A stretch of 64,000 bases of DNA, taken from contig CAJVGD010000011.1 in assembly GCA_910890315.1 (NCBI GenBank), positions 248,001 through 312,000 of the forward strand, in the 5' to 3' direction. Shown one piece after another: positions 4,816 to 34,358 of the stretch. The position numbers and the translations under genes were made by a program. The first letter of the stretch is position 1; each line of letters begins with the position of its first letter. The DNA is from Serendipita indica DSM 11827 (Eukaryota > Basidiomycota > Agaricomycetes > Sebacinales > Serendipitaceae). The notes beneath the pieces were generated by a model, which had not been told where the DNA came from, searched no databases, and worked only from the letters and a program-made list of their open reading frames with translations.

Positions 4816-5176
4816 AGGAGATCCAGATCGTTCTTTGCTACGTTGTGTATTTGTGTCGGGCTGGTTAAATCAACGACGGGGCCGCTCGAGATCAGCATCG
4901 AACATGGTCAAAACCTAGACGGGGGTACGAACAGATGGTGGGAAGAGATTTGGCTGGGTCATGCGACGCGTATTCGCATTTGTGGGCTTGCTGTAGCCAC
5001 TGGAGAGGCTGTCTTGGCTGCCGTTGACGCGATGGAACATCGAGACGTCGCGTTGGTCAAGCTCAACTTGGGCAGATGTTTGGCCCACCATTCTTCCACG
5101 ACCGGATGGCTTTGGGAAAGTCGTTTTATTATGCTACAATTGCAAAAACAAATACATAGCGTCGATAATGTTACAT
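4816..5176. other. Intergenic region (promoter of coiled-coil gene)
   Basis: It lies upstream of the minus-strand coiled-coil gene and downstream of the minus-strand Clp1-like gene. Open frames here are short and show no family signature. Confidence 0.45.
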
Positions 5177-6132
5177 CTACACTATCGCGTGGGCGACCGC
5201 TCGGTGCCTTTGACGAAGCTGATAGACGCCGAGTCGCAAAGCATTACGAAGTATCAATGATACCAGTTGGAGAGTCGTATATAACCTAGGCTCGTGAATG
5301 CCCAACGCGCGGCAGTTGGCCAATAGCCCGTTGAGACGCGATATTAGTCGCCTTTGATGTGTCACCGAGCATGAAGCAATTGCATGCTGCAGTTCAGTGA
5401 TGCTTTGTTGGTACGTGGTTGGTTCTTGCTCCTTGGCTACAAGAATGAGCGTCTCGACGTGCCGGGAGAGTATGCCAGATGCACTGCATCGTCGAACAAT
5501 CCGTCTACCAGAAGATGCTAGCAGATATCGAATGATATCGTCAATGTTGTGGGTATAAAGGTAGCGATGAACGATGTCAAATGAGGATGGATGCGGGATG
5601 GTAATGGGTGCAGCCGTAAATGTCGGACTCTCGCACGACAAACGGTATTTTGCCGGGATGGGTGGGAGTTTGGAACATTGCGAGTAGAGGATGATGTCGT
5701 GTACAGGTTGAAGGAAGAAGGAAGACTTTGCATTCTTATTGGGAGTATGGATTGCAAGGATGTGGGATGGTGGAAAGTCGATATCGTATGCCGTAATGCT
5801 GCCTTGGAGGGAATCGTAAAGGAGGTCGCGCGAAGCGTCAAGGCTTTGAAGCAACCTGGATGATATAAGTTGAGTAAAATGAAGCGGGAATAAACCCACC
5901 GAGGACCAAGTTGGTCAAGTCGGTCGAGGACGTAGTCTGACGGTATAGTGACCTTGCATGGAGTGCTGGGTGCATGTACGATGCCCATGGCTCCCGAACT
6001 GAGTGTAGGGCACACCCTAATCGCTGTTGGCCTCGGAGGCTCACACGTTCTGTTGGGAAGGGGCGAGCGACGAGAGGAGAAGGGTAGCGCCCACTTTGGG
6101 TCCGGCAGGGTTGATATACGCGAGGGACACAA
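5177..6132 (-). CDS. Clp1-like (clampless-1 family) protein
   Basis: Two exons, 6132-5900 and 5855-5177, separated by a 44-bp intron with GT..AG ends; the junction restores LGPR-LLQSLD in frame and gives 303 residues. The N-terminal motif is LPDPKWALP. The core contains PPSHILAIHTP, a LQPVHDIILYSQCSKLPPIP block and a YLYTHNIDDIIRYLL block. The C-terminal half ends in a helix around NGLLANCRALGIHEPRLY. This order matches the basidiomycete Clp1-like family. Its founder, Coprinopsis clp1, acts downstream of the A mating-type genes in clamp-cell formation; Ustilago Clp1 acts in dikaryon growth. Agaricomycete genomes carry several family members, so this one need not be the clp1 ortholog. Family recognition is from memory of motifs. 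Confidence 0.6.
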
Positions 6133-6633
6133 TTGTCATTGCAAAAGAGGGTTGTTATTGCTGGCGCTGTGGCCATTGTTCCTCGAGATACGGCACTTCC
6201 AACCGCTTTCAGCGACCTGGCCATTGTCTCGCCGGGTGCTTCATTTTAGCCACAGGGCACGTGCAATCCCCCCACATTAGAAAAAGTTAGACTTGAATGC
6301 TCGTCACGAGTACTGTTGACGATCATATGCGGCCTTCTCGCCCGTTCTTGTGCTTCACGTCTTGCGCCTGCCGGAACTAGCATCCCCCGAGAGGACTAGT
6401 TTGAGCTCTCAGAGGTCTGTGATCGTGATCACGTCAGTTTTCATTTGATTTGGCGCGCGACGCCACGTCAAAAGCTTGTTAAGAGGGTCTCCAACCCCAC
6501 AACTAGTCCCATTTAACGTGCTTTACGATAATTTGACCAATAGTCCACTAAATAACATGAATGGACGAGAGCGGGACGTCGTCGTGAATATGGTCGGTGG
6601 CAAAGCTTCGCTTGTGGCCACTTTTGCGAATTT
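6133..6633. promoter_or_regulatory. Divergent promoter region, Clp1-like / SUZ gene
   Basis: About 500 bp between two genes that start away from each other. It should hold both promoters. I could not assign a TATA box or operator with confidence. Confidence 0.4.
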
Positions 6634-7400
6634 ATGAGCACAACGGTGCAGGATGACTGGGATAACACAGATGTAGTTTACACGTCTTTTCATCTTCTGA
6701 TATGGAGACTAACTGTGCCTGTATAATAGGTATCAAGCGACTTTTCACCTCAACAAGTGCCGAGAGACTCCATGGGGATAGGGAGACGCAAAGAAAAGGT
6801 CAAGGACGATTGGGACGCAGACGACGAGGACGCAGAAGATACCACCAACACTGAGCCAAGCAGGCGTCTTGTCCAACAGGACGAATGGCCGTATGTCATG
6901 GCCATCCACCAGCTGCGATCATCTTATACGCATACAGATCTCTTTCTGAGAGTAGAGGAGTAGCAAATACTCGCCAGATTGCCAAGCCGCGACCAAATAC
7001 ACAGAATGCGATGCCCAGCCTTCCTCCAGAGGTCTTTGAGCCTCCAATGCGCATCCTCAAGCGCCCAAAGGGATCTGGAACGCAAACCCCAACGTCTCCT
7101 GCAGCGAAGAGTGACAAAGAGACGCTCCAAGAACGCGAGGAAAAGTACAAGATTGCCCGGGAGAAGATCTTTGGGACCCCATCGCCTGGACCCGTCTCTT
7201 CCTCTCCACCAAGAGTTGCATCACCTGGAGTAGTCAAGATGGGCAACTCTGGCGGTTTGTCGACAAAGCCGTCTCGAGCTGTCCGCGAGCCACTTGGCCC
7301 TGAGACACAGACTGCATTCGCCAGGAAACCTGGCAATCCTGGGCGCGGACAAATTCAATTGCAAACGAAACCCGCCCGTCCTCGGTCTGAGGGACCCTAG
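6634..7400 (+). CDS. SUZ-domain RNA-binding protein (SZRD1-like)
   Basis: Three exons, 6634-6672, 6730-6890 and 6938-7400, join in frame to 220 residues. The N-terminus MSTTVQDDWDNTD is acidic, followed by RRKEKVKDDWDADDED. The SUZ motif lies near residues 105-150: MRILKRPKGSG, then LQEREEKYKIAREKIFG. SUZ domains bind RNA and help place proteins on ribonucleoprotein granules. The tail is Pro/Ser/Gly-rich with basic patches. The third exon start at 6938 was preferred over the later AG at 6963 because only 6938 keeps the frame. Small SUZ-only proteins of this size are widespread in fungi. Confidence 0.8.
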
Positions 7401-7637
7401 GGCGTTTACCTTACTGGCACTGGTTGTGGATAGCTATCGGCGAGGCAAGGCCAGTTCTATTATTTATTGTGCAGTGTAACAAATGTATGTTTGATGGAGA
7501 TTCCGTTGAATATATCCAGGCATTTGTGGACGCCCGTTGACACTGCCCTCCGCGCGCCAAGCGGGTCGTACTTTATCTCTTAGACCCGACTCCTACCCCT
7601 CCGTCCTACGACCTCCCCCCCCGTCTCTCCTTTCATC

Positions 7638-9015
7638 ATGAAACTCCAGTCAAAGACGAAAAAAATTCTCTTCGTCGCTGCCGTTGTCGCATCGTTGGCG
7701 ATCGTCGGTCAGTTGGTTTCAGTATTTCGACGGCGCGGGCTGACACAAACTCCGCACCCCCCGTGCTTTGGACTCCCTGCATTTAGGCACTGTCGTTGGT
7801 GTAGTCGTTGTTGAAGTCAAGAAAAATCGCCAAAGCAACGCGACATCCACCCCCTCCGACTCAAACAGCTCAGTCTCTGGCTCCAGCACCCAAGGAAACA
7901 CGGCGTCTGCAACGTCCACCTCTGGGGCATCCTCTCCTGTTGCAACAGATTTCCCATTGGACCCTAATCTTCACAAGTCGTTTTATGGCTTGGCGTACAC
8001 CCCAAAGGGAGCCATCATGCCCGAATGCGGCGCTAATATCGCTGATGTCCGCAAAGACATGGAGAAACTCAGTCAATTGACGACCCGTCTTCGTCTGTAC
8101 GGTTCCGACTGCAACGTTACCTCGCTCGTCCTTCAAGCAATCGATGATCTCAAAGTCGATGTCCAGGTGTTCCCGGGCATCTACCTCGAGCGAGAGGAAC
8201 TTTCCTACACTCGCCAGAAGAGGATTCTTGAGGACGCACTCACTGTCTACGGAACATCGCGCGTTTTGGGAGTGACTGTTGGAAACGAGTATTTGCTCAT
8301 TTCAGCAATGCAGGAGACACGATTGACAACGCTACGACCCGCCTCGTGGAGAAGATGAACGAGGTCCGGACCGATCTTACCGCTTTGAACTTCAATATCC
8401 CCGTTGGAACGAGCGAGACTGGTGGAGGAACGTCGCAGACCTTGGCCGACAATGCAGACTAGTAAGTTTCACTCATCATGTCTCGGAACCCGCTGACCTT
8501 TTGCCCAGCATCTTTGCCAACATTCACGTACGTTGCCGCCTCTTCTTCCTAATTCATTGCTCACCCATTGTTTAGCCATGGTTCTCCTCCAACACGGTCG
8601 AACAAGCCGCCACCTTTGCCAACAATCAGTTTACGAATCAAATTCTCCCCTTGGCCACAGCGAGCACGCGCACGCCTCCTCCGGTAATGTATCAAGGTGA
8701 ATACGGCTGGCCATCGGGCTCGGACACACCTGGAGACACCAATTCTGCTGGAAGCGCGGCATCCTTGGCCAACTTACAGCTTGCCCTGGACGATTGGGTA
8801 TGCGCCGCGAACAGGGCTGGAACGTGAGGACACTTTCCTTTATGTCCCTTTCTTCTCTGCTGACGATCACTCGTAGGAGGTACTGGTGGTTTGAGCCATT
8901 CGACGCGACGTGGAAGGCAACGACGACGACTCTGGGCGTTGAACCACATTGGGGACTCTTCGACGGAGAAGGAAACCTGAAAGACATTACGATTCCGGAT
9001 TGCGTGGCAAACTAA
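7638..9015 (+). CDS. Membrane-anchored GH17 beta-1,3-glucanase
   Basis: Cell-wall glucan enzyme of glycoside hydrolase family 17. Exons are 7638-7707, 7787-8461, 8509-8527, 8576-8823 and 8877-9015. The N-terminus has a type II membrane anchor (KKILFVAAVVASLAIVG, continued by GVVVVEV after the first intron) and then a Ser/Thr-rich linker. The catalytic domain starts at FYGLAYTPKGA. The acid/base Glu is in VGNEYLL and the nucleophile Glu in MYQGEYGWPSGSD; RYWWFEPFDATWK is the usual end of the barrel. Just after VGNEYLL (about 8293-8312) the frame jumps by one base: the continuation GDTIDNATTRLVEKMNEVR is clear but in another frame, and no normal-length intron fits. See findings. Confidence 0.85.
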
Positions 9016-9469
9016 AAGGCTGCCTTCGGATGCCCGCTGGACCTCATGGACACTGTTTTGATTCTCTTGGTCTTCAAGATGGACAATAGCGATGTCTTGT
9101 GACATTCCCCATCCCACTCATTCACCATCACACTCTCTATAGAACACTGTTCCGTAACATATTTGCCGAACGAACCCTGTTTGTTGTTAATCAGACTCGA
9201 GAATATATTCTTGGTCTCAGAAATAGCGCTACTCTGAGCGTGTCCCGGCTGACACTTATGAAGCCAAAAGGTGGCTCCTAATGGTATGATTCACCCAGAT
9301 TGGCTCGCCCCTCAGTTAGAGAGCCTGAGTAAAGCAATCAAATATTGGTAAAATGGACAAGATGATCATCCAAAAAGACATCTCAGCGATTTATCGTCAT
9401 TTTAATAGAACGGCGGGAGGGTTCTGGCAGAGAGTAATCTCAGATGACTCCAGAGTCTTTCAAGCACTT
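9016..9469. other. Intergenic region
   Basis: The region lies between the convergent 3' ends of the GH17 gene and the left NLR copy. I see no coding pattern. Confidence 0.45.
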
Positions 9470-12400
9470 CTACTTGAAATTCACGAAGGAAGTAATGATG
9501 GACATTAAGAGAGCACTCTCTCCGTATTCTATAGAAAGATGGGAACAGAAGAGTGCCTTTATTGGCTGAACATCCGTTCGAACATTAGTCCATGAGGGCC
9601 CACACTGAAACCGGTTGAAATCAATTGTGGTTGGACGGAAGCGAGGAATTGGCGGCATAGTCTGAAGAAGACAAGGATATTGCAGTCCATGCCGATTGTT
9701 TGGCGGCACCCAAAAGAGATATTTACCAGAAGAGAGGACCCAACCATCCTGCGAAAGTGAACATTTCTCGAACCCAGGTACCGGGATTCCTAGAAGGATA
9801 CCTCTAGGTTCGTCCTCGGAGTGAGAGCTTGAAGGCGCATTATCTCTGTTATTCGAGTTTCCAATGCTTGCAGCTAAAGATTTTTGTTAGATTATCTCCA
9901 TAGCTAGCAACAGGCCGGAACTACAACTGACCAATCTCTGTATCCCACAGACGAACCGTCTTATCGAGCGAGCCAGAAGCAATGCGCAAGCCGTCAGGCG
10001 AGAATACGAGAGTACAGATGTCCCTTTCATGACCCCGAAGAGGTTCCCCCAATGGCTCGCCAGTATTTGCGTCCCAAAGTTGAATCGTCCCGTCATAGGA
10101 GCCAGAGACAATTCGTGAGTTGTCTGGCGACAAACTAGCGACAATAAGTGGAGCTCCACGACCTTTCAATGGCTCTCCCAAAGGGTGACCAGTCTCTGCG
10201 TCCCACAGTCGAATCGTCGAGTCGGACGAGACAGAGACGATTCGTGAGCCATCTGGCGAGAACGTCACAGCCGAGACCCAACCTTGATAACCTCGTAGGG
10301 GCTCTCCCACCGCCTGGCCAGTATCTGCATCCCATAATTGAAACGGCGCCATAAGCGATCCAGAAACGACTCGGGAACCGTCTGGCGATATTGAGACAAT
10401 CGAAGGTGCTGGTTGAGGACCTTGAGGACCTCGGACTGGCTCTCCCAATGGCTGGCCGGACTCTGCATCCCACAGCCGAATCACGTTGTCACTTGAGCCA
10501 GAGAGGATTTTTGACCCGTCTCGCGAGAACCTGACAGTCGAGACCCGATCTGCATGGCCTCGTAGTGGTAGTCCCACTGGCTGACCAGTGGTCGCGTCCC
10601 ACTGTCGAATTGTCTTGTCTTGCGAGCCAGAGACGATTCGCGAACCATCTGGTGAGAAGGCAACTGCCATAACGCAATCTTCATGGCCTCGGAGTGGTTC
10701 TCCCAGCGGCTGGCCAGTGGCTGCGTCCCACAGTTGAATCGTTTTTTCTCTAGTCCCGGAGACAATTTGCGAGCGATCAGAGGAGAATGCGAGAGCCACC
10801 ACCGAGCTATCGTAATCTCGGAGTAGCTCTCCCAACGGCTGAGCATTGTCTGCGTCCCACAATCTGATTGTCCCATCAAACGAGCCTGAGACGATGCGTG
10901 AGCCATCTGGCAAGAATGCGACAGCATTGACATGGCCTTCGTGCCCTTGGAGTGGCTCCCCCAACGGTTGACCAGTCTCTGCGTCCCAAAGTCGAATTGT
11001 CTTGTCCTCCGAGCTAGAGACGATGCGCGAACCGTCTGGTGAAAATCCGACGGCGCATACTTGACCTTTGTGCCCTCGGAGTGGTTCTCCCAATGGCTGA
11101 CCAGTGTCTGCGTCCCAAAGTCGAACCGTCTTGTCATGAGATCCGGAGACAATTCGTGAACCATCTGGTGAAAAACCGACAGCCATCACCCAGAATTCAT
11201 GACCCTCAAGTGGTTCTCCCAATGGCTGGCCATTTTCTGCATCCCATAATTGAATTAGCCTATCACGCGACCCGGAGACAATTCGGAAGCCATCTGGCGA
11301 GAATGCGACGGCAAATACGTCTTGTTCATGACGTCGCAGTGGCCCTCCCAAAGGCTGACCAGTATCTGCATCCCATAGTCGAATTGTTTTATCCTCCGAG
11401 CCGGAGACAATTCTCGAGCCGTCTGACGAGAATCCAACAGCCAAGACAGCTCCTTCATGCCCTCGAAATGGCTCTCCCAGAGGCTGGCCATTGTCCGCCT
11501 CCCACCGTCGAATAGTCCCATCTCTTGAACCAGAGACGATTCGCGACCCGCTCGGCGAGAACGCAACAGCCGTTACGCAATCCTCATGACCTCGAAGGGG
11601 CTCCCCCAGCGGCTGCCCTGTTTCTGCGTCCCATAGTCGAATCGTCCTGTCTCCTGACCCCGATAAGATGCGTGATCCATCTGGGGAGGTTCCGACGGTG
11701 TAGAACCTTCCCCCGTGACCACGAAGAGCCCTGGGAAGCCCAGGATACGTCTCCTCGTATCCCTGGGTCACATTGAGAGTATTGGCATGCCGCTTCAGTC
11801 TCTCGCTGTGAAGGATTGACTTCCTCGGACTGAACGCTAATGCTGAGATGTAGATGTGCGGAGCACTGTCTTGAATCGGCACCGAAAATGCCATTAGAAA
11901 CCGTCGAACCTCCGTCATCATCGTCCTCGTCTCCTCTTCAATCTACTTCTGCGTAAGGCACTATATTATGTATTTATAGACTACTCACTCTTTTATGGCG
12001 TGCAACAGCTCGAAGTCCCGCTATCGCCCTTGGTACCCCTCCCGTGAAACTCAGAACCTCCATCCAGTATAGGACATATGGGCTTTTGATCACGTGTTCG
12101 ATTCCGTCCTTTAGCCTAGTTCGCCACCCGTCATCCGTTTCCGCCAAATGAAATAACCAATGCAAACCAGCATATCGAAGCCGCCTTGGAATGAACTTTG
12201 AAATTCTCTCTTCCAGATCCGGAATCTGCCTGTTCAGGAAGAAAGAGGATTCGATTTCACATATGTTGAACTTGAGTCCTCCAATCGGCAACCTGAACCG
12301 CTTCAAACACCACGATGCTGTTTGACCGTGAGCATTGCCGATATCGATATATAGTTTATTTCGGTTATCGCCACCTCGGGGGATCGAGCACCGTCGAAGG

Positions 12401-14321
12401 TACTCGACCAGCGTTGGGTGGTGAAATTGGATCAGATCCGTCTTTGAATCCACACTGAGTACGCTTCCTAGGTTCTGTACCAGTGCCCTAGCACTTCCCC
12501 GTACTTTTGCATGTTTTACTAGATCGTCCAGATCGTCCACTGTCAGCGGTTCAAATGCACCGTGCAGCAGTGCCAGCATTGAACACATGACCGCGTAGTA
12601 CTCGGGGTCTGTCCGCTCGAAGACAAGATTGTATAGGTCGTCGATCACTCCTGGCTGGTCCAGAGAGATCAAACGGTCATATACGTCCTCGGCTGAACTC
12701 AATCTGGTTTCACTCGTGAGCATTCGACATGCGGTGCTCGCCCAGATGAACAATCCGTTGGCCTTTTCGGCCAGACGCGGTCTCTTGTCCTGCGGTAGGA
12801 CTTCATGCAACGAATGATGCATACACCGCGATATCGTTTGTGATATCCGGGTGTTTCTACATCGTGAAGCCGGTTTTCCAACTTTTCCTTGATCAAAAGT
12901 CCTGCAAGACCGCCTCGATGACGGGATCTGGCCGACTGGTGAGAAAGATTTTGAGGTTCGCAACTCGCGAGCAGCGGTAGCAAGCGCCTCGAGAAGTTCT
13001 TCGCTGTGATCCAGATTTGCATTCGTCGATAGCGTCGATGACGAGGATCACGCGCTTGCCTGACTGGAGGAGTGGATTCGTGATGAGTGTCCGGAAGTTG
13101 CTCATCCACAGAACTTCGCATGAAAGAAGGGTTCTGTTCCACAGCTTTGGCAATGTGGGGTCTGAGATCAGGGAAATAATGGACAAGGTCTCTTGCGATG
13201 GTCGAACAGAACTTGTCCGTGGTCGATGCGTCGTTGTTTGCCGCGGAGAAGAAGAATCGACCCTAACACTCCTTCGTTCCGCCATGATTCGACTACGGAC
13301 ATTGCGACTGTAGACTTGCGGACCCGGCTATATCACACAGCCAAAATATCGGCTTCTCCGACGGCACCTCACTGGCCCAGCGCCAGATCATCTGAAGGAC
13401 TGCCTCACGCGTTCTTTTCAGACAGGTCGTATGAACCGAGGACGCGGCGAATGCGACTGTCGGCAATAGACGAAGAATAGTTGCAGTCTCGACTAGAAAC
13501 GGCTAAGCAAGCCTCTCTACAAAGATGTTAGACTTACTCTTTCGTTCGATGCCTTGAGTACGCAGTGCAGTAAAAATACCTAACGCTTCCTGTGTATATA
13601 GTGAGATTGCGAAGAAGACTGAAGAAACCCGCACCATGAAATGCCGATGTCCGTCCTCGATGTCTCTATTGAGTTCACGAATCTCTCCAGCATCGATCTT
13701 CACTTTGCTCATAGATTTCAAGAACCCAAGTTTGCTGCGACTTCGTTTCTCCCTCACTTCGACCACCGTATCATGGATATCTTCGAGAGCTCTGTATCGA
13801 TCAGCTTGCTGAAGAAATTTAGAATCCTCACGTACTTGAAATAGTGCATCAGTGGCTGTCTCAGTGCCTCGTCGAAAGCCCTATCGTTTGCGGCATATGC
13901 CTCGAACAAAGTGGTTTGCTTCTCGAGTCCGCTCATGTATCCCTTCAGACGCTGTGTTAGGTTCGTCCATTCTTCCTGGTTGCTCTCGATAGCCTGCCCA
14001 TATCCGTCAGTTGATGCCGTTAAGCGAGTTGGGCCGATTTACCTGCATGATATCAAGGACAGATTTCGTCGTTCGACATGCTGCTTTGAGAGGAGCAAGT
14101 ACATCTGAACCCTCGGATATATTTCCCAATGCATCGAGGCCAAAGTTGACTTTGTCGTACACTTGATTCTTCCTGGAAGACGAGCTTTGGGCGACAGAGA
14201 AAGATTCGGGTGGATTGACAGTTTCATGTGATTTCTTGGACTTGTCCCGCCGTTTGGCCGACATCCGTGGATGCGGATGGATCCAAGATGGGCGGCGTCG
14301 TGTGTCAAAGAGTGTCGGCAC
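9470..14321 (-). pseudogene. NACHT-WD40 (NLR-like) gene, left copy, many frameshifts
   Basis: Same architecture as the right copy. Exon 1 is 14321-14043 (279 bases, identical length to the partner). The N-terminal helical domain, NACHT, a helical linker and 14 WD40 repeats follow. Exons 9932 to about 11943 and 9873-9470 carry the WD40 array and a C-terminal block ending in [17 protein letters not shown] and a longer tail than the partner. Between about 12,830 and 13,840 at least eight 1-2 base length differences from the partner break the frame, one of them inside the P-loop GSGKS. Base substitutions there are few. The WD40 exon is fully open. It may be a recently inactivated gene, or partly a consensus artefact (see findings); if expressed from an internal start, only the WD40 half would be made. 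Confidence 0.7.
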
Positions 14322-14688
14322 AACACAGAGCTGAACACAAGAGTGGAGAAGAGTAAGACTTGGGATTCATAGGGTATCTTTGGACTCGTTAGGTGGTTCA
14401 GTTTCATGGAAGCAGGAATGCAGGTGACTCTTGTCGTGTATCTCTAATGCGGTATGGTCAAGGTTTGATAGAGAATGCGATAGGCAATGTATTGCAAATG
14501 TCATTTATACACGTTAGGCTCAACTCCTGCGCAGCCCAAGTACCTTCTGAGCCTTTGGACTACTCGATTATCTACCCTTGGTGTTACACAGAATCAGTAA
14601 GCCCTACTGTTAGACAGAAGGGTGGTACGGCGAAAATGTATATATATATACGGTAGATACTACACCTACACTCAATCCAAGCGACATG
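9569..14688 (-). repeat. Left arm of large inverted duplication
   Basis: About 5.1 kb that matches 17405-22558 in opposite orientation. The inner edge is sharp: the shared sequence begins at CATGTCGCTTGG (14688 going down; 17405 going up) and the bases beyond differ. The outer edge falls near the C-terminal RTDV codons of the NLR genes. Coding exons and short introns are shared in order. Similarity is very high in the inner half (promoter, N-terminal domain, NACHT) and falls at the WD40 half. Confidence 0.9.
9932..11735 (-). repeat. WD40 repeat array, 14 units, left copy
   Basis: Fourteen tandem units of about 129 bp (43 residues), consensus [16 protein letters not shown] then SGS.D.TIRLWDA and TGQPLGEP. 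Unit 11 is irregular (contains QGPQPAPS) and units 8 and 13 have lost the GH dipeptide. Fourteen units fit two seven-bladed propellers. Confidence 0.9.
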
Positions 14689-14942
14689 GAGCCATACCCC
14701 TCAGTTTCTATGGCTCCGTAGAAGGATGCGAGGTTCTTCGGTGCGGCCTTCACGTACACTTTAATGAAAAGCAACTCGAAGGTCCGTTGAAAAATGTTTA
14801 TAGGATCCTCTATCTGGGCGCGGCAGAAAGGGCGCATGGCTAGGAAGATGTCGCGCCATAATTTGTACGGTAACCGGTTGAGATAGTCCATACCATTGAT
14901 GCGTACGATTATATGTGCGTCATTGATGGTCGTGTCGGTCAT
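14688..14942 (-). pseudogene. Truncated F-box gene fragment abutting the arm
   Basis: The frame starting MTDTTINDAHI continues MDYLNRLPYKLWRDIFLA and then ELLFIKVYVKAAP. It matches the neighbouring intact F-box protein (DYLGRLPDELWRLIFLAT ... ELLFTDVQLN) but lacks about 30 residues between the F-box and the ELLF motif. It then runs straight into the duplicated arm at 14688. It is a decayed paralog, cut by the duplication boundary. Confidence 0.65.
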
Positions 14943-15057
14943 TTTATACCGAATGTCTGATGAGGTCAGGTCCAAACGGAACTCGAATAAGAAATCCAGG
15001 ATTAAACGTCGACTTTGACGGAGTGACGACGTAGGACGATACATCAAATTTAAGAGG

Positions 15058-16350
15058 TCATTCTAGGACAATTTCGGTACCATACATCGTGCAAAACTTT
15101 CCGATGAGACCCAGCGTCTCCGCTTTGATTTTTTGGTAGACCTCACTATTGTGAGGCAAGGAGCAAGTTAGACGGAGGATCACCCTTTTAAAGTGAGGAT
15201 ATCGCTGTTGGGGCCGATGGAAACCCCACGAGTGGAGAGTCCCTGTAGCATGGTACGATCCATGGGTCGTAAATATCCCAGTATGAAGTGAAGGGTGTGG
15301 CTCATAGTTGCGACTTGAAGTCATTCGATTATTCCCCGGACTATAAAGTCCCTTCCATGAATCTGAGAGGTATACCGTCTCAAGGTTTGGGCAGAGATAG
15401 ATGAAATCAAGGACCGCGTCCATGTTGTTGGATCCCCCGAGCTTGCGGCGTGATTGAATTTGTAGGAAAGTTAGATGGAGACAATTGGCGCTGATAAAGT
15501 TGACGATCCTCGGCTTCAGTTCCATGTCCACAAACTCAAGGTTAAGCCATCGTACATTGGGTACGGAGAGTGAGCCAATATCCGAGACACCGTCTCCAGT
15601 GAGCTGGAGGTGCTTCAGGTGAGGGAGGTGGATGGTTGGCTGGGATTCGTTGGGCCATCGAAAAAGAGTCGTGTCGGAGGTCCCGGTTTCCACCAGGAGG
15701 TCCTCTATCTGCGCATTTCGAGCCAATATACGAGAGATTCCGCCCATATGAGCATAGCCGCCTTGCCAAATGAGCGAGTTTATGCTAGGAAGCCAGTCGA
15801 GAGTGAACTCTGACTGAGATTTGAGGGAAGCTTCGACCTCGACCGTACCCACGTTAGGGCATAGCTTGAAAATTTCGCGTAGAGGTTGATAGTATCTCGC
15901 CTCCTTCCACGCGTTGACTTTGCCAAGCTTGTACAGCTTAAACGTGAGGCACCTGGTAAAAAGGCCAGCGTGTCTCGACAGAGATCCGCCGAGTTCCACA
16001 GCCTTGAGAAAAAGTACGGGAGAATTCGACACTATATTGAGTTGTACATCTGTAAAGAGCAGCTCGAGCGCAATGGACTGAAGTGCTTTGCAGATCAATC
16101 GCATGTTCGCACGCTGTTTCTGTGTTTGGCCCAGAACTTGGTTATCCAAGGTGGTAAGACCGTTGAAGAAGGTAATCGGGTCGCCTGCCAACCCTCGGCG
16201 AGGTGGGAGTGTCGCAAGGAAGATGAGGCGCCACAGCTCATCGGGCAAGCGTCCTAGGTAGTCGACTCCATCGGTTTCTGTCGGTATAGTGTCCTCAATC
16301 GCCGCCGTCTCGGGCATTTCGACGAGAGATGGGGTGGAGGTCAGAACCAA
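15058..16350 (-). CDS. F-box protein, Agaricomycete LRR-like family
   Basis: A single open frame of 430 residues lying in the spacer between the two NLR arms. The F-box is at residues 28-45 (DYLGRLPDELWRLIFLAT), followed by RLICKALQSIALELLFTDVQ, the usual post-F-box motif of this expanded mushroom family. The C-terminal two thirds hold irregular leucine-rich segments such as LPHLKHLQLTGDG and CPNLETVYLSD. F-box proteins of this type link SCF ubiquitin ligases to unknown targets. Two damaged relatives lie on either side, in opposite orientations. Confidence 0.8.
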   Translation of the reverse strand: MVLTSTPSLVEMPETAAIEDTIPTETDGVDYLGRLPDELWRLIFLATLPPRRGLAGDPITFFNGLTTLDNQVLGQTQKQRANMRLICKALQSIALELLFTDVQLNIVSNSPVLFLKAVELGGSLSRHAGLFTRCLTFKLYKLGKVNAWKEARYYQPLREIFKLCPNVGTVEVEASLKSQSEFTLDWLPSINSLIWQGGYAHMGGISRILARNAQIEDLLVETGTSDTTLFRWPNESQPTIHLPHLKHLQLTGDGVSDIGSLSVPNVRWLNLEFVDMELKPRIVNFISANCLHLTFLQIQSRRKLGGSNNMDAVLDFIYLCPNLETVYLSDSWKGLYSPGNNRMTSSRNYEPHPSLHTGIFTTHGSYHATGTLHSWGFHRPQQRYPHFKRVILRLTCSLPHNSEVYQKIKAETLGLIGKFCTMYGTEIVLE

Positions 16351-16380
16351 CCGTCATGACACAGAGGTTTTGGAATTCCT

Positions 16381-16760
16381 TGACTTTGCCGCACCTAGAA
16401 GAAGCCACGATGACTTCTCCCAGCGGTCAACACGAAAAAGTGCGCAAATCTGCGGCTGATCTGCAAAGCACTCGAGCCTCTTGCACTCGAGCTGCTCTTC
16501 ACGGACGTGTACTTGAGACCATGCTGGGAACTCTTGCATCCTGCTATAGGACTATAGATTCTGAGGTATATGGGTCCAAAAACGCTGGCGTTTTTACACG
16601 CTACATCGTCCATTTTCTTGTATATAGAGCGTCCCAGAACCCAGCCCTCGACACTCTATTGGTGGACGCACAGGTGCTCAATACGACGTTCCCTTGGCTT
16701 GGCACTTGTTTTGCGACTCTTAGGCCAGTTGAACGCAATGTCATTCACATAAATGCCTAG
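16381..16760 (+). pseudogene. F-box gene fragment, plus strand
   Basis: In one frame the plus strand reads LRLICKALEPLALELLF then TDVYLRP, clearly related to RLICKALQSIALELLFTDVQ of the adjacent minus-strand F-box gene. A shifted frame reads NAGVFTRYIVHFLVYRA, matching HAGLFTRCLTFKLYKL. The F-box itself is missing. It is a broken copy in inverted orientation to 15058-16350. Confidence 0.6.
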
Positions 16761-16899
16761 CATAACCGAACTCTAACCACCACCTCCTGAAGTATTGAGG
16801 GCAGCATGCCGGGTGATCCATCTATGCGCCGTCAACAGTATCATACTTAAAAATAGGGAGAACAACCCTTTATACATATATGAGCAGCGTCATGCGGTC

Positions 16900-17200
16900 A
16901 AGCCCTGGTCACGGGTCAGAGGGCTTTGAATTCGAGGGATGTAGTGACCATATCTGTTTTGAGGCTGCAGCACGGAGTTCATAAAGGATGAAGGGATAGC
17001 TGTCGACGACTCGGGTGACGAGCCAGGCAATTACGAGCACCAACCTGATCTTGACTATCACTCGGATAGTTCGTGTCAAACGAATATTGCGTCGTATTGA
17101 CGAATTGGCTATATTCCGTCATTTGAAAGAGCAAATGCTACGGCTCAATGACCGCAACTTGAGTTTACTCCTGTCGCGGCAGTCAAGCTTTGGAAAATAG
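16900..17200 (+). repeat. Decayed coding fragment, copy A
   Basis: About 270 bp that resembles 23090-23345 in the same orientation (shared blocks around GAATTCGAGGGATGTAGTGA, GACGACTCGG.TGACGA and GAGCACCA.CCTGATC). One frame gives an acidic tail GNYEHQPDLDYHSDSS and a basic helix LRRIDELAIFRHLKEQ follows. Both copies are damaged. The two copies bracket the right NLR gene as imperfect direct repeats. Confidence 0.55.
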
Positions 17201-17404
17201 TATAAGAAGGCTACCCAAGGAGATACATTATCCAGCTTTGTTCGCTGAGAGGAATGTCACTCACGATCGGATATAATCAAGACGGATTCTGTCTATATAA
17301 TAATCTACTGGTGGGATCTTAGGGAACAGTCGTCCAAGCAAGGTCACGTTGAAAATGGTGCGCCTCATTGGCAGCATCGAATTGGCAAAAGAGTAGCCGC
17401 AGTT

Positions 17405-20400
17405 CATGTCGCTTGGATTGAGTGTAGGTGTAGTATCTACCGTGTATATATATACATTTTCGCCGTACCACCCTTCTGTCTAACAGTAGGGCTTACTGAT
17501 TCTGTGTAACACCAAGGGTAGATAATCGAGTAGTCCAAAGGCTCAGAAGGTACTTGGGCTGCGCAGGAGTTGAGCCTAACGTGTATAAATGACATTTGCA
17601 ATACATTGCCTATCGCATTCTCTATCAAACCTTGACCATACCGCATTAGAGATACACGACAGTAGTCACCTTGATTCCTGCTTCCATGCAACTGAACCAC
17701 CTAACGAGTCCAAAGATACCCTATGAATCCCAAGTCTTACTCTTCCCCACTGTTGTGTTCGGCGCTTTACTATGCCGACACTCTTTGACACACGATGCCG
17801 CCCATCTTGGATCCATCCGCATCCACGGATGTCGGCCAAACGGCGGGACAAGTCCAAGAAATCACATGAAACTGTCAATCCACCCGAATCTTCTTCTGTC
17901 GCCCAAAGCTCGTCTTCCAGGAAGAATCAAGTGTACGACACAGTCAACTTTGGCCTCGATGCATTGGGAAATATATCCGAGGGTTCAGATGTACTTGCTC
18001 CTCTCAAAGCAGCATGTCGAACGACGAAATCTGTCCTTGATATCATGCAGGTAAATCGGCCCAACTCGTTTAACGGCATCAACTGACGGATATGGGCAGG
18101 CTATCGAGAGCAACCAGGAAGAATGGACGAACCTAACACAGCGTCTGAAGGAATACATGAGCGGACTCGAAAAGCAAACCACTTTGTTCGAGGCATATGC
18201 CGCAAACGATAGGGCTTTCGACGAGGCACTGAGACAGCCACTGATGCACTATTTCGAGTACGTGATCATTCCACGTTTTCTTCAGCAAGCTGATCGATAC
18301 AGAGCTCTCAAAGATATCCATGATACGGTGGTCGAAGTGAGGGAGAAACGAAGTCGCAGCAAACTTGGGTTCTTGAAATCTATGAGCAAAGTGAAGATCG
18401 ATGCTGGAGAGATTCGTGAACTGAACAGAGATATCGAGGACGGACATCGGCAGTTCATGGTGCGGGTTTCTTCAGTCTTCTTCGCAATCTCACTATATAC
18501 ACAGGAAGCGTTAGGTATTTTTACTGCACTACGTACTCAAGCCATCGAACGAAGGAGTAAGTCTAACATCTTTGTGAGAGGCTTGCTTAGCCGTTTCTAG
18601 TCGAGACTGCAACTATTCTTCAGTCTATTCTTCAGTTGCCGACAGTCGCATTCGCCGCGTCCTCGGTTCATACGACCTGTCTGAAAGGAACGCGTGAGGC
18701 AGTCCTTCAGATGATCTGGCGCTGGGCCAGTGAGGTGCCGTCGGAGAAGCCGATATTTTGGCTGTGTGATATAGCCGGGTCCGGCAAGTCCACAGTCGCA
18801 ATGTCCGTAGTCGAATCATGGCGGAACGAAGGAGTGTTAGGGGGTCGATTCTTCTTCTCCATGGCAAACAACGACGCATCGACCACGGACAAGTTCTGTT
18901 CGACCATCGCAAGAGACCTTGTCCATTATTTCCCTGATCTCAGACCCCACATTGCCAAAGCTGTGGAACAGAACCCTTCTTTCATGCGAAGTTCTGTGGA
19001 TGAGCAACTCCGGACACTCATCACGAATCCACTCCTCCAGTCAGGCAAGCGCGTGATCCTCGTCATCGACGCTATCGACGAATGCAAATCTGGATCACAG
19101 CGAAGAGAACTTCTCGAGGCGCTTGCTACCGCTGCTCGAGAGTGCGCGAACCTCAAAATCTTTCTCACCAGTCGGCCAGATCCCGTCATCGAGGCGGTCT
19201 TGCAGGGACTTTTGATCAAGGAAAAGTTGGAAAACCGGCTTCACGATGTGAAACACCCGGATATCACAAACGATATCGCGGTGTATGTGCATCATTCGTT
19301 GCATGAAGTCCTACCGCAGGACAAGAGACCGCGTCTGGCCGAAAAGGCCAACGGATTGTTCATCTGGGCGAGCACCGCATGTCGAATGCTCACGAGTGAA
19401 ACCAGATTGAGTTCAGCCGAGGACGTATATGACCGTTTGATCTCTCTGGACCAGCCAGGAGTGATCGACGACCTATACAATCTTGTCTTCGAGCGGACAG
19501 ACCCCGAGTACTACGCGGTCATGTGTTCAATGCTGGCACTGCTGCACGGTGCATTTGAACCGCTGACGGTGGACGATCTGGACGATCTAGTAAAACATGC
19601 AAAAGTACGGGGAAGTGCCAAGGCACTGGTACAGAACCTAGGAAGCGTACTCAGTGTGGATTCAAAGACGGATCTGATCCAATTTCGCCACCCAACGCTG
19701 GTCGAGTACCTTCGACGGTGCTCGATCCCCCGAGGTGGCGATAACCGAAATAAACTATATATCGATATCGGCAATGCTCACGGTCAAACAGCATCATGGT
19801 GTCTGAAGCGGTTTAAGTCGCCTATTGGAGGACTCAAGTTCAACATATGTGAAATCGAATCCTCTTTCTTCCTAAACAGGCAGATTCCGGATCTGGAAGA
19901 GAGAATTTCAAAGTTCATCCCAAGAAGACTTCGGTACGCTGGCTTACATTGGCTGTTTCATCTGGCGGAAACAGACGACGAGTGGCGAACTAGGCTGAAG
20001 GACGGAATCGAACATGTGATCAAAAGCCCATATGTTCTATACTGGATGGAGGTCCTGAGTTTCACGGAAGGGGTACCACGGGCGATAGCGGGACTTCGAG
20101 CTGTTGCGCGCCATAGAAGAGTGAGTAGTCTATACGTACATATTATAGTGACTTACACAGATGCAGATTGAAGAGGAGACTAGGACGATGATGACGGAGG
20201 TTCGACGGTTTCTAATGGCATTTTCGGTGCCGATTCAAGACAGTGCTCCGCACATCTACATCTCAGCACTAGCATTCAGTCCGAGGCAGTCAATACTACA
20301 TAACGAACGGCTGAAGTGGCATGCAAATACACTCAGTGTGACGCAAGGTTTCGAAGAGAGATATCCCCAACTTCCCAGGACTCTCCGAGGCCATGAATGG

Positions 20401-22558
20401 TGGATATACGCCGTTCAATTCTCACCAGACGGATCAAAAATTGTCTCTTGCTCGGGAGATAATACGATTCGCCTTTGGGATGCCGAAAGCGGGCAGGCAT
20501 TAGGAGAGCCGCTCCGAGGTCATACTTCGGAGGTGTTCTGTGTCAACTTTTCGCCAGATGGTCACCGGATCGTTTCAGGTTCGATGGACAAGATGATTCG
20601 ATTATGGGAGGCGGATAATGGTCAGCCGTTGGGCGAGCCACTCCGAGGTCATGAAGATGGCGTCTTCGCTGTCGAGTTTTCGCCAGATGGCTCGAAAATT
20701 GTCTCTGGCTCCTACGATACAACGATTCGACTGTGGGACGCGGACACAGGTCAGCCGTTAGGATATCCACTTCGAGGTCATGACGGTTGGGTCTACTGCG
20801 TTAAATTTTCTCCAGACGGTTCAAGAATTGTCTCTGGCTCATTTGACGAGACAATTCGAATGTGGAACGCTGATACCGGTCAACCGGTGGGAGAGCCACT
20901 GCGAGGTCACAAAAGCCGGGTCTCAGCGGTCGGATTCTCTCCAGACGGCTCGACAGTTGCCTCTGGCTCGTGGGACCAGACAATTCGATTGTGGGATGCA
21001 GACACTGGTCAGTCGCTAGGAGAACCTCTCCGAGGGCACAAAGACACAATCGCTGCCCTCGCATTTTCGCCCGACGGCTCGAAGATCGCCTCTGCTTCTC
21101 ATGATAGGACGCTTCGACTGTGGGAGGCGCATACTGCTCACCCATTGGGCGAACCACTTCAAGGCCATGAAGCTGCGATCAATGCAGTTGGGTTTTCACC
21201 AGACGGCTCCCGAATCGTCTCTGGTTCCACCGACAAGACGATTCGACTATGGAACGCAGGAACCGGTAAGCCATTGGGAGAGCCCCTACAAGGTCATGAA
21301 GTTTCAGTAACGGCTGTCGCATATTCTCCGGATGGCTCGCGAATCGTCTCAGGATCAAAAGAAAAGACGATTCAACTATGGGACGCGGAGAGTGGTCAGC
21401 TTTTGGGAGAGCCACTGAGAGGTCACGAAGATTCAGTGAGCTCAGTCGCGTTCTCGCAAGATGCCTCCCGAGTCATCTCTGGCTCGAACGACAACACCAT
21501 TCGGCTTTGGGAGGTAAAGACTGGTCAACCTCTGGGAGAGCCATTTCGAGGCCATGAAGACTGGGTCTATAGTGTCGGATCTACTCCAGATGGCTCTAAA
21601 ATTATCTCTGGCTCCCGCGATAATACCATTCGGCTGTGGGATAGCGAGACCGGTCGGCCGCTGGGAGAGCCACTTCGCGGTCCTGGAGAAAAGGTATGGG
21701 CCCTCGCGGTCTCACCGGACGGCTCTCGAATTATCTCCGGCTCCCGCATCGTGCCTGCCCACCAATTCTTCTCTGAAACGACGATGCAACTGTGGGAGGC
21801 AGCTACTGGTCTGCCGGTGGGAGAGCCACTAAGAGGGCATACTGCTCCGGTTGTTGCCATCGCGTTCTCACAAGATGGCTCCCGGATTGTATCGGGCTCG
21901 TGGGACCTTACGATACGCCTATGGGATGCTGACACTGGTCAGCCGTTGGGTGGGCCGCTACGAGGTCATGAAGCTGCAGTAATAGTCGTCGGATTCTCGC
22001 CAGACGGCTCGCGAGTCGTCTCTGGCTCTCTTGACGGAACGATTCGGCTGTGGGATGCGAACACTGGGCAGCTGCTGGGAGACCCACTTCGAGGTCACGA
22101 AGACTCCATCGACGCGATTGCATTCTCGGCAGATGGCTTCCGTATTGTCTCTGGCTCAAAGGACAAGACCATTCGAGTATGGGACGCAAACATTGGTAAG
22201 TACAGGGTTGGCCTGTTATTGACTCTGTGATATGAATTGAAAATTATCGTTAGATCCAACCCTGGATGTCACCACCGACCGAGAAAGACAACCTTCAAAC
22301 ACCAGCCCCGGGGACAGTATAGCGGCTACTTCCCCAGGCATCCATATACCTGGATTCAATTATTGCTCACTCTCTCAGGACGGCTGGGTTCAATCTTCCG
22401 GAAACTATCTCTTCTGGGTGCCGCCGGACAATCGGCATGGACTACAATATCCGCGTCCTCTTCTGACCATGCCGATAAACAGTCGGTTTCGTGCGACCAA
22501 AATTGACTATAGTCGTTTTCACTGTGGGCCTTCTTGGACAAGCGTTCGAACAGACGTT
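17405..22558 (+). repeat. Right arm of large inverted duplication
   Basis: Partner of 9569-14688. It contains the promoter region, the whole intact NLR gene up to its RTDV codons, and a 250-bp stretch upstream (17437-17700) that is almost base-for-base identical to the left arm. Confidence 0.9.
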
Positions 22559-22567
22559 AACGAATGA
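17772..22567 (+). CDS. NACHT-WD40 NLR-like (STAND) protein, intact copy
   Basis: Five exons join without a break: 17772-18050, 18100-18556, 18601-20120, 20167-22195 and 22254-22567, giving 1,532 residues. Residues 1-250 form an alpha-helical domain ([15 protein letters not shown], a [12 protein letters not shown] patch) like the N-terminal four-helix domains of fungal STAND proteins; no HET domain is seen. NACHT follows: [11 protein letters not shown], Walker [11 protein letters not shown], Walker [12 protein letters not shown] and the sensor-like IFLTSRPDP. After a helical region ending YWMEVLSF come 14 WD40 repeats and a conserved tail with [16 protein letters not shown]. Family members act as signal-sensing switches in fungal self/non-self recognition; the ligand of this one is unknown. 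An internal ATG at 17832 (MSAKRRD) is an alternative start. Confidence 0.9.
20380..22195 (+). repeat. WD40 repeat array, 14 units, right copy
   Basis: Fourteen units of about 129 bp, nearly all with the GH and WD dipeptides at fixed spacing. Unit 11 is longer than the rest (extra residues after IISGSR, around VPAHQFFSE), and the left copy is also irregular at unit 11. Variable residues concentrate in the stretch right after RGH and before AV.FSPDG, on the propeller face. Confidence 0.92.
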
Positions 22568-23561
22568 TCTGGTGCGGCGGCTATGGTTATGAATACGCTC
22601 CCTTCTGTCCAGAACTAGCTCCCATCTTCCTATAGAATATATAATGCAGAATTAGTAAGGTACTCGTTACATTCTCGCCGACGTGGATAATCAGGAGTGA
22701 TCTTCGCGTTATCTGGTAATTTCCAGCAGGCTACTACCTGTTTTAATTAATTTATTCGTTTCATATCGACTGAATAATTATCGGGATATTGACTAGACCT
22801 GACCATATCTGCAAACTTTCCTTTCATCTTATCTATTTATCTCGACCAACGGCGCCCTTGATTCCACCGGAATGGTTCGGCAACTGTCCTCCGTGCTCTG
22901 GTCCCGACTCGGAATCCAATGATATGTAGAATGTCGCAAACTATACAACGAGGCACGGATACTGTAAATTATTCATCACAGCTCCCAAAGGCGTCAACAG
23001 CCCGCTTGTCGGGCCATTAAGGCATTAGGTTCACCAATAAGAGAACGAGCCTCTACACTGTGAGGAACAACGACAGACAGTCAAGCTCTGGAGACAGATA
23101 CTCTCCAGCGACAAAGGACCAGAGGCCCCTGAATCCGAGGGAAGTAGTGAGAATCTGGTTTGGGGCTGCAGACCGGGATCATACGAAGTTTACTGAGGAT
23201 GAAGGGTCGTTTACCGACGACTCGGATGACGAAGCATACAATTAAGAGCACCACCCTGATCACTCGGACAGCTTGTCATCAGAAATTATGGACACTGCGT
23301 CGGATTGACGATTGAGGCATACCGTCGCTTAGACGAGCAAAATATCATCCTTGGGTCGAGACTTTGAAATTGACTTTCGCTATACTTTATGAGGATAGGT
23401 GCAGGTCGTCGGGATGACGCCGAGTGCGTAACTGATCGCCAAGGGTTTATTCGTTTTTAATTTTCAGATAAACTTGTTTCTTCTTTGAATGGTGTGCTCT
23501 ACTAGCGAAAGAAACACAACTAGTCGTAAAATGGCGAGTTATCTGGCTCGTAAATCAGGAC
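22568..23561. other. Gene-poor region with decayed fragment copy B (23090-23345)
   Basis: About 1 kb, AT-rich between 22600 and 22850. The stretch 23090-23345 is the second copy of the fragment at 16900-17200, with an acidic frame reading EDEGSFTDDSDDEAYN. The rest shows no gene. The 3' end of profilin lies just beyond. Confidence 0.55.
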
Positions 23562-24254
23562 CTAGTAGTTCATCTTCCTGAGGTAGTCTGCCAATCCTTC
23601 TACGGCAGCGGCGCATTGCTTCTGGTCTATAGAGGAGTCGCAAATGGCTAAGATGATTGTCCTGGCCGACTTTACGATTATACATCCCTCTCCCTACCGC
23701 CGGCTCGTGAGTTGTGTATTCAGTTGGAAGGTCAGAAGGACTACGTACCGACTTGCTTCCGTAAAGGTGATGACCTCCTTCAAATCTGGTCATAATGTAC
23801 TTGGTCCCTTTGAAGCGGAAACCATTGGATTGCAACTGTCCTCGCGCCTGTTCGTAGTTTGGATTTTGGAGAATATCGATGATAGCCAACACATCTGGAT
23901 CATCACGTGTGGGCACCTGAAGACACTCCGGTTAGATGGTAATAGATTATATGAGGACATAAAGCCGAGCTTTATGAACACAAGTTTGGAAGGGATGGGA
24001 CTGCTACTGACCCCTAGATCCGCCGACTGAGTCCAAACCGCCCCTTTTTGATTTTCTTCTGCAAGTATACCGATGATGGCCGCTTTGGTGGCCGCTTTGG
24101 ACCCGACGAGATTATCAATGTAGGCTGAGCGGCGGGCGACGGGAATCGGGGCGGCAAAAATAGGAGAAAACCAGAAAGACAAGCATCAGCAGATCGATCA
24201 ATATTGGAGATAGTAGCGAACAGAGACGGGCGTACGTTTCCAGGGGTCCGCCAT
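23562..24254 (-). CDS. Profilin
   Basis: Actin-monomer-binding protein of the cytoplasm that feeds actin to formins. Four exons, 24254-24236, 24124-24012, 23916-23749 and 23693-23562, total 143 residues with no frame defect. It starts MADPWKPYIDNLVGS, the profilin N-terminal pattern (W..Y.D.L...) that helps form the poly-proline site. The middle reads FKGTKYIMTRFEGGHHLYG and the end CAAAVEGLADYLRKMNY, matching the profilin C-terminal helix. The length is slightly above the usual 125-140, through a DDPDVLAIIDILQN insertion-like segment after the second exon. Confidence 0.9.
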
Positions 24255-24588
24255 CGTCTTGTGCGTCTGAGCTTTGGCCGAGTTCAAGTTGGAGTTTCCT
24301 AAAAAGGCGCTGGCCTGTGGCTCTCGCCCGCTGGCGTCCTGGGACAACTCCAAGTTGCTGAAATGAGATTTAAAGGTTTAGAGGTCCTATAGTTTCCAGA
24401 TGAGACGTCTGGATTAGCCAGATCCGTTAAAGCAAGTCTACCTGCTGGCTGCCAGATGCACTCTCCTATCAAATATCCTGTTAAATTGAATGAACCGACA
24501 CGAAATACGCAGTATATGACTGTATTCCCGCCACCACTTACCAGCCTGTTGTTTGGCCAAACAATCCATCCCAACCAAAACCTCGACC
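24255..24588. promoter_or_regulatory. Bidirectional promoter, profilin / ribosomal uS11
   Basis: A 334-bp interval between two strongly expressed, divergently transcribed genes. It must contain both start regions. No element is assigned with confidence. Confidence 0.45.
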
Positions 24589-25224
24589 ATGGTACGAATA
24601 CCCTGATAGCATCGCGCGAGACAGCTGATGAAGAGGTTTTATAGCCACCAAAGAAAGGAAAGGTTGTCAGGGAAGAAGCTACTGTCTCGCTCGGTCCTCA
24701 AGTCGCAGAGGGCGAGCTCGTCTTTGGCGTCGCGCACATCTACGCGTCTTTCAACGACACTTTTGTACATGTTACCGATCTTTCGGGCAAGGAAACCATC
24801 TCGCGTGTCACCGGTCAGTCCTTGCTCTTTTTCCCACTTTCTTGACCAAAACCATCCAGAGTGGCTGACTGACCGTTCGTTCTAGGTGGCATGAAAGTCA
24901 AGGCTGATCGTGACGAATCGTCTCCATACGCCGCTATGTTGGCCGCTCAGGATGTTGCTGCTCGCTGCAAGGAAGTCGGCATTACCGCTCTTCATATCAA
25001 GCTCCGTGCTACTGGAGGAACCGGAACAAAGACACCTGGTCCAGGTGGACAGTCGGCTCTCAGGGCTCTCGCTCGTGCTGGCATGAAGATTGGTCGTATC
25101 GAGGACGTGACACCTGTCCCGACTGACTGCACTCGCCGCAAGGTTGGTCTCGGTTCTCATATCCATCTTATTTCCCATATTGAATCATTCTATCTAGGGT
25201 GGTCGTCGTGGTCGTCGTCTCTAG
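24589..25224 (+). CDS. RPS14: 40S ribosomal protein uS11 (S14)
   Basis: Small-subunit ribosomal protein that sits on the platform near 18S rRNA. Exons are 24589-24591, 24645-24813, 24886-25142 and 25198-25224, total 151 residues. The first coding exon is only the ATG; the intron starts straight after it. The protein reads [12 protein letters not shown], then [59 protein letters not shown] and ends in the basic tail GGRRGRRL, all diagnostic of the family. There is no frame defect. Confidence 0.96.
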
Positions 25225-25500
25225 ATTCAAAAACTCGCATTTTCCGTGGTGCATGCTTGTGTATGTGCTCTTGTCTGTGCGCGTGGTTTCAATTGTCGCC
25301 GCACGACACGCAGCAAGTCATCCTCGATGTCTTGTCCCGTGGTCGTGCCCATTCTGACCTCTGTTGTTTACAGTGTCCAATGGTATGTTGCCTTGGACGT
25401 TTCATACTATTAGGCGCCATGTATACATAAGAGAAGATCCAATTGCTCCCAAACTGCGTGTGGTCTCGAGTCTATTCTAGTATCGTGCTCCCTGGTCGGC

Positions 25501-31116
<5,616 letters not shown>

Positions 31117-31499
31117 TTGAGGGGAAATAGGGGGAGATGGGAGGGATCAAGGGCCACTTTATAAGCTCTGAGAGGATGCGAAAGACGCGGGGAGAGTGTA
31201 TAGCGGAAGCTGACCAACTGATGCCGAGCACATGCGCTTCAGGGCCATCGAGTAGATGGACACATCACAATAAGTCAGTCCAAGTCATTGAAACTGTGTA
31301 GACATACGTGTAGCTCGGCAGAAGCCCGAGTTATTTATGACTTAATTCACACCTGGACCCGACTCCGACACGACTCCGACTGGTATTTACCAAATTTGCA
31401 CTACAACTATACATACCAACGCAAGCAGCTAACCGATCGGGCAATGCTTGCACATCATACATTCTAGGCGCTGGTCAGCCCTTGATCCTGTCCACGATA
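31117..31499. promoter_or_regulatory. Divergent promoter region, ABC transporter / F-box gene
   Basis: The interval lies between two genes starting in opposite directions. I see no open frame of interest and no clear drug-response element. Confidence 0.4.
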
Positions 31500-33247: not shown

Positions 33248-33309
33248 GGTACAGTCATTGTAAACCAGCTGCTTCATATATTCATAATACACGACTATTA
33301 CTTTCGTGT

Positions 33310-33966: not shown

Positions 33967-34358
33967 TGTCGATGGGACGTTGCTAATCCTGAGAGGACAA
34001 AGAGGAGTTAAAGTAGGTGAACTGGACACGACCTGTCTATAAGTACCTTGTGTGCGAGGTAGTCGAACCGGTGGAGAGTTGTTGGCGGGAGTCTGTCACT
34101 CCACCATCGCTTGGAGTGGGTAGAGGGTTTTTATAAGCGTGAACAGCCTTGACGCACATGCTCAGAGGCGGCTCATTTAGCTCCAGCTTCGTCCGGGAAT
34201 CGCTCGCAGCCAGCTGTATAAGCAGCCATCGCGCCCGTAGAGATGACTTACGAAATGCTTCCAATCGACACGACGAAACCTCGGATAATCTTTATCTTTT
34301 TGATGGTGCGGTGGGTGCGGCGAACTTGGATCGTTTAGACTTGACCATCACTGCGGTC

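Follow-up and report, generated by a model that had tools for sequence, protein, structure and literature searches.

How can two neighbouring receptor genes be nearly identical along one half and distantly related along the other? The question is raised by an inverted repeat in the window analysed here, a 64,000-nucleotide stretch (C11:248001-312000) of a 24.7-Mb assembly in 55 contigs. Arm A (9569-14688, minus strand) and arm B (17405-22558, plus strand) each carry a NACHT-WD40 gene and lie on either side of a spacer (14689-17404), the right part of which is also found on a second contig, C46. The arms align with 84.06% identity over 5,174 columns. Their inner edges are sharp, with CATGTCGCTTGG at both, as an earlier sequence-only reading had claimed. 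High identity is limited to the inner 2.9 kb (A 11827-14688, minus strand; B 17405-20282, plus strand), where it is about 97% overall and 86-100% per 100-column window; 89 substitutions separate A from B over B 17405-20290. This 5' common tract takes in approximately 425 bp of upstream DNA, the introns, the N-terminal exons, and the NACHT exon, and the alignment bears out the earlier description of introns and upstream DNA as near-identical between the arms. Identity falls sharply where the WD40 region begins, and the WD40 exon is about 68% identical overall (54-79% per 100 columns). The inverted duplication described earlier is present, but it is not one uniform 5.1-kb duplication. By eye, homology stops three codons before the stop codon of B (22565-22567), so the outer edge reflects where coding sequence ends and is no joint of the duplication. 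In the compared paralog loci L012-L028, nothing matches the arm's first 400 bp, and matches begin at arm position 390 at the earliest.

The gene in arm B, modelled from splice consensus and allele comparison, is intact: it has a start codon at 17829, six introns (18051-18099, 18258-18302, 18460-18504, 18557-18600, 20121-20160, and 22196-22253, plus strand), and a frame that stays open over all 1,483 codons modelled. Its NACHT exon (18601-20120, plus strand), placed by Pfam and the gene model, matches NPHP3_N (E 4.7e-28) and NACHT (E 8.7e-11), both beyond cut-off, and contains the P-loop GSGKST. The WD40 exon (20161-22195, plus strand) consists mostly of 43-residue repeats and is hypervariable between alleles; Pfam finds 13 WD40 stretches per arm, and the tryptophan register gives 14 blades. 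A NACHT ATPase with a P-loop (in arm B) followed by C-terminal superstructure-forming repeats is the architecture by which fungal NLRs are recognized, and both genes belong, as linked members, to a large NACHT-WD40 NLR-like family of fungi, laid out as an N-terminal region of about 200 residues, a NACHT ATPase, and a 14-blade WD40 sensor. The N-terminal region is less clear. PF17111 (PigL_N), which we take to be the former HeLo-like N-terminal model, scores 15.9 bits over residues 49-185, under its cut-off of 27.2, and is outscored by LepB_N (19.5) and a Nuf2_DHR10-like match (17.2), both also under cut-off; for the N-terminal 226 residues, Pfam gave 11 matches at E 5 or below, none of them to a HET family. 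Against solved structures the best E value for the NACHT exon is 0.33, and its predicted structure (mean pLDDT 57.6) is too poor for use.

Two further contigs are collinear with C11 and are further haplotypes of locus B: C46 (53.5 kb), from window position 15945 to about 49.4 kb, and C47 (58.1 kb), from 17447 to about 55.2 kb. The gene model of B transferred to C47 is likewise without a stop, while the C46 allele is frameshifted in its N-terminal part and late in the WD40 region. Over 24138-40916, substitutions among the three contigs amount to 0.57-0.89%. Between 20283 and 24136 (plus strand), C11 differs from C46 and C47 in a hypervariable allelic block that ends abruptly in 97-99% identical flank; within it, C46 and C47 are patchily related (70-100% identity per 150 columns). 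Synonymous divergence among the three alleles (B11, B46, and B47) is 0.60-1.15 in the WD40 block and 0.11-0.15 in the NACHT exons. The region at 28-33 kb is present in three copies in the assembly. A single copy is seen of the left flank (4500-9500), of a 3-kb locus on C40, and, save for one 88-base match at 78%, of 55.3-64 kb. Locus B is thus present in three versions in an assembly that has one copy of each of the other regions examined. The presence of three diverged versions together also argues against simple mutual incompatibility of the alleles.

The 5' half of A reads as a patchwork of these alleles. The comparison used the 2,811 columns of that half that are gap-free in all four sequences, columns gapped in any of them having been removed before sites were counted; A is represented by one haplotype only, and codon counts and trees used B46 only up to its WD40 frameshift. 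There are 42 informative 5' sites, which group A with B11 (26), B46 (10), or B47 (6) and fall in eight runs, where the null mean is 23.7 and none of 20,000 shuffles was as low; such clustering shows that the four sequences have recombined. Where columns are free of gaps, A is identical to B46 over 18105-18404 and to B11 over 19205-19504, and differs from B47 at a single position over 19905-20104. The WD40 half behaves differently. Across all six pairs, dS is 0.048-0.152 in the NACHT exon and 0.60-1.31 in the WD repeats. Private sites in the 5' half number 27 for A (27/143) and 40, 45, and 31 for the B alleles; in the WD40 half they number 203 for A (203/475) and 138, 80, and 54, and the contrast for A between halves is significant (Fisher P 1.3e-7). 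It is this contrast between the 5' and WD40 halves that suggests that recombination crosses loci.

The same figures bear on a simpler account, in which A arose when a fourth B haplotype, not sampled here, was recently duplicated once in inverted orientation, and both its mosaic and its WD40 divergence are ordinary diversity among B alleles. In the 5' half A is indeed no more distinct than a B allele, and the B alleles by themselves already combine mosaic 5' halves with WD40 divergence. When trees of the 5' half are rooted with distant outgroups, AU tests give no grounds to reject a monophyletic B (P 0.285 over the entire half, and 0.146, 0.323, and 0.079 in three separate tracts) and are compatible with either placement of A. 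The sensor half speaks against this account: in nucleotide and protein trees of the part before the B46 frame break, rooted with the paralogs C5, ins47, and C18, B11, B46, and B47 group together to the exclusion of A with support of 100; a nine-residue insertion is common to the three B alleles and absent from A, C5, and ins47; and the excess of WD40 private sites in A is far from its standing in the 5' half. We consider a fourth haplotype rather unlikely on these grounds. The earlier view, that the duplication is recent unless gene conversion has kept the copies uniform, applies to the 5' half only: in the WD40 region, A and B separated before B split into its alleles. Duplication of the whole gene in one recent step is not the favoured account.

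A domain swap would fit the abrupt change in identity at the WD40 start: the promoter-to-NACHT half of B would have been copied once onto an older neighbouring WD40 gene, leaving A as a chimera without continuing exchange. The A and B WD40 arrays share 66% of residues, as against the 69-71% that each shares with the unlinked paralog C5, which fits this proposal. Against it, successive 5' tracts of A match different B haplotypes, so that a single event would need a donor that was already mosaic, and the arrays of A and the B alleles are more similar in register than out of it (P 0.0002-0.0054), as expected if the A and B arrays are old relatives. One such swap seems to us improbable, and a shared signalling half maintained by recombination remains the preferred reading. 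Two other sources of WD40 divergence were considered. A shift of register was rejected, as in-register identity is higher than that of the best shift in all six pairs, narrowly so for A and B46 (0.685 versus 0.680). Recent import from another locus is unsupported: unlinked WD40 matches of at least 1 kb reach 74% for B11 (40 scored of 190 candidates) and 76% for A (40 scored of 186), and short unlinked fragments among the candidates scored reach 81% over 89 bases.

The sequence-only reading had placed a complete gene in each arm, which is true of B; the assembled arm A loses its frame at the P-loop. It reads open for 262 residues and is then broken by a cluster of indels private to A (12822-13320, minus strand, coordinates by alignment). 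The NACHT exon of A has six private deletions and two private insertions, and none there is private to B11, B46, or B47. In B11 coordinates the indels span 18783-19286, where A/B11 substitutions are few; the longest substitution-free stretch between the two is 423 bp (19145-19568). The dN/dS of the NACHT exon of A is 0.10-0.25, and the WD40 region of A, diverged from the three B alleles, retains an open frame of 666 aa (9921-11921, minus strand). Private deletions and insertions number 114 and 5 in 16.6 kb of C46, 9 and 6 in C47, and 16 and 12 in C11, so the deletion excess among the indels of A resembles that of the error-rich C46. Because the indels show this bias and fall in a stretch with hardly any difference between the arms, consensus error is a plausible cause of the frameshifts; recent decay is possible.

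A broader possibility is that the inversion, arm A, or the extra contigs derive from misjoined or error-laden long-read contigs. C46 and C47 both start at or near the repeat, the right flank is in three copies while the left flank is in one, and the small deletions of C46 and the position of the indels in A are as described above. The junction of arm A at 14688 is supported by C11 alone. The junction of the spacer with arm B is independently present in C46, which starts within the spacer and so carries both spacer and arm B, and an open frame runs across the C46 start point. The arms differ by 3% to 30% and their outer flanks are unlike, which also rules out a missed-adapter palindrome, and the WD40 differences preserve frame and blades save for one late frameshift in C46. 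An artefact on this scale is very hard to credit.

If the sensors are what differs, the positions at which they differ are informative. Mean internal repeat identity is 62-64% in A, B11, B46, and B47, below the threshold of >85% taken for HNWD/het-type repeats from the accessible text of PMC4986451. The WD40 repeats of the paralogs C5 and C18 look nearly identical internally, unlike the A and B arrays. With W as position 1 of the repeat, entropy is highest at positions 37, 21, 19, 39, 18, 24, 4, and 17 (entropy and identity from 12 repeats, pN/pS from 10). Positions 19, 21, 37, and 39 have a mean entropy of 3.32 versus 1.15 and differ in 68% of in-register pairs of A and the B alleles, versus 30% for all positions (P 1e-4); positions 18, 24, 17, and 4 are as variable as 39. 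Positions 19 and 21 flank V20, and 37 and 39 flank D38. Podospora NWD codons 7, 9, 25, and 27 similarly flank the conserved codons 8 and 26 in the part of PMC1805685 available, and because the flanking pattern is alike these codons probably correspond to positions 19, 21, 37, and 39. On that register, the hypervariable positions would include the equivalents of four positively selected codons of Podospora NWD/het genes. A predicted structure of the B exon (P0002; mean pLDDT 74.4, four sequences) puts 17-21 before or at strand a, in the d-a loop, and 37-39 at the b-c turn, apparently the same placement of variable positions as in Podospora NWD (PMC1805685, accessible sections). By analogy with Podospora, sensor variation would be concentrated at the positions that face the ligand in NWD receptors. 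The dN/dS of the WD40 region is about 0.2, and pN exceeds pS at only three of 43 positions: 24, 37, and 41, the last not an HNWD site, so that 37 alone qualifies among 19, 21, 37, and 39. Hypervariation is therefore claimed here, and positive selection is not.

The divergent orientation of A and B had also suggested a working pair driven from one regulatory centre, as in the head-to-head sensor/helper pairs of plants, which are alike in consisting of two divergently oriented NLR genes. About 3.6 kb separates the two start codons, and a 430-aa open frame lies in between (15058-16350, minus strand), so that a shared promoter is unsupported. This frame is F-box/LRR-like by eye; it has no Pfam match above cut-off, and comparison with the F-box-like open frame at 50995-52437 showed no relation (best E 0.58). 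In a set of 85 loci, made up of arm A and the 84 candidates scored out of 320, ten pairs of NLR neighbours lie within 20 kb: six tandem, three head-to-head, and one tail-to-tail. Head-to-head NLRs are called rare in Sordariales, at 13 of 225 two-NLR clusters (PMC12258605, as far as its text is available). Both genes here have the same architecture, which with the intervening frame sets them apart from the plant pairs, and a plant-style NLR pair is not supported.

What best accounts for the locus, we judge with some confidence, is that two loci share one signalling half by recombination while their sensors diverge. In sequence, the upstream DNA and the N-terminal and NACHT exons can stand in for one another across loci and haplotypes, and the WD40 sensors are anciently diverged, even between B alleles. 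Exchange between the inverted arms, by ectopic recombination or gene conversion, would keep the promoter and signalling half common, and ordinary recombination among haplotypes would help to maintain it; such exchange would halt at the WD40 block, where divergence is too great for pairing. Selection may preserve many sensor versions, as in non-self recognition receptors, and balancing selection is usual for het genes (PMC12881547, in part). Binding of a ligand by the propeller might then release NACHT oligomerization and, through it, an N-terminal, possibly HeLo-like, death effector. More tentatively, the inverted repeat could be a recombination device that gives both linked receptors, in every haplotype, the same promoter-effector-NACHT module, with the sensor propellers as ancient balanced alleles, several per mycelium; the locus would then be a candidate for allorecognition, or for recognition of symbionts or parasites, in a basidiomycete. 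The cues that activate fungal NLR sensors are described as a crucial open question (PMC10197012, accessible text). Alleles with common flanks, promoter, and NACHT exon but WD40 dS near 1 amount to a natural sensor-swap experiment.

The literature searched, which was partly accessible and did not extend to subscription papers or preprints, yielded no earlier account of this locus, and it is not described in the available portions of two papers on Piriformospora (Serendipita) indica (PMC3192844, PMC4986451). These portions report a 25-Mb genome judged most likely heterokaryotic, with 99 NACHT-WD ORFs and 274 NLRs, an expansion like that in the 24.7-Mb assembly, where all 84 scored of 320 candidates have NACHT, the C46 and C47 alleles included. 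Genome size and NWD expansion would suit this species or a relative; a comparison by 5.8S rRNA gave no match among the 39 scored of 783 candidates. The SNP density they give (2.6 per kb) is below the 6-9 per kb between contigs here, and a heterokaryon of two nuclei would yield two haplotypes where three are present. In the zebrafish NLR-B30.2 family, NACHT and sensor exons are likewise treated differently by gene conversion, with positive selection on the sensor (PMC4852459, accessible part); that family comprises nearly 400 genes with a B30.2 sensor in a fish, whereas this locus is a two-gene inverted repeat with allelic sensor variation. There is also a close likeness to the NWD/HNWD genes of Podospora anserina (het-d, het-e, and het-r), also a gene family with NACHT, a 14-blade WD40 sensor, and polymorphic alleles, in which functional het-d/e alleles have 11 conserved and three cryptic blades (PMC1805685, PMC2873952, and PMC12222747, each in part). 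HNWD repeats are internally near-identical, shuffle, and change in number, while the A and B arrays keep their register at the lower internal identity given above. Unlike HNWD proper, these genes have no HET-domain match and come from a genome that appears to be of basidiomycete type. The locus thus presents an NWD type in which the signalling half, homogenized between two loci, takes the place that the repeat array has in HNWD.

Variation between the haplotypes of locus B does not stop at the arm-B gene: it remains high for 1.6 kb past the gene (window 22559-24136) and ends abruptly at 24136. Among the other contigs of the assembly that carry this locus, C46 has 114 private deletions of 1-5 bases versus 5 private insertions over the 16.6 kb compared, and this bias points to an unpolished long-read consensus.

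In the haplotype comparison, C46 (24743-40006) and C47 (23452-38660) share a segment of roughly 15 kb that is absent from C11, the contig of the window; the repeat at window 40778-40916 is found at both ends of this segment. In C47 the segment includes a further NACHT-WD40 gene, whose repeats are similar, as well as an ORF of 362 aa whose cytidine-deaminase-like matches are below the cut-off. C47 also has a 5-kb insertion (41059-46059, L041) at window 43174, encoding frames assigned by eye as Ty1/copia-like; C46 has an insertion at the matching place, and C11 has neither.

The right part of the window has an F-box-like ORF at 47420-48472 and a tandem duplication (84%) at 50966-54653 with two ORFs, of which the first (480 aa) has an F-box-like Pfam match just under the cut-off and the second (478 aa) one above it.

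Elsewhere in the same genome, the WD40 repeats of the paralogs at C5:456900-459250 (L049) and C18:119500-121800 (L048) are highly uniform. Judged by these repeats, one genome holds both homogenised and non-homogenised putative NACHT-WD40 sensors side by side.
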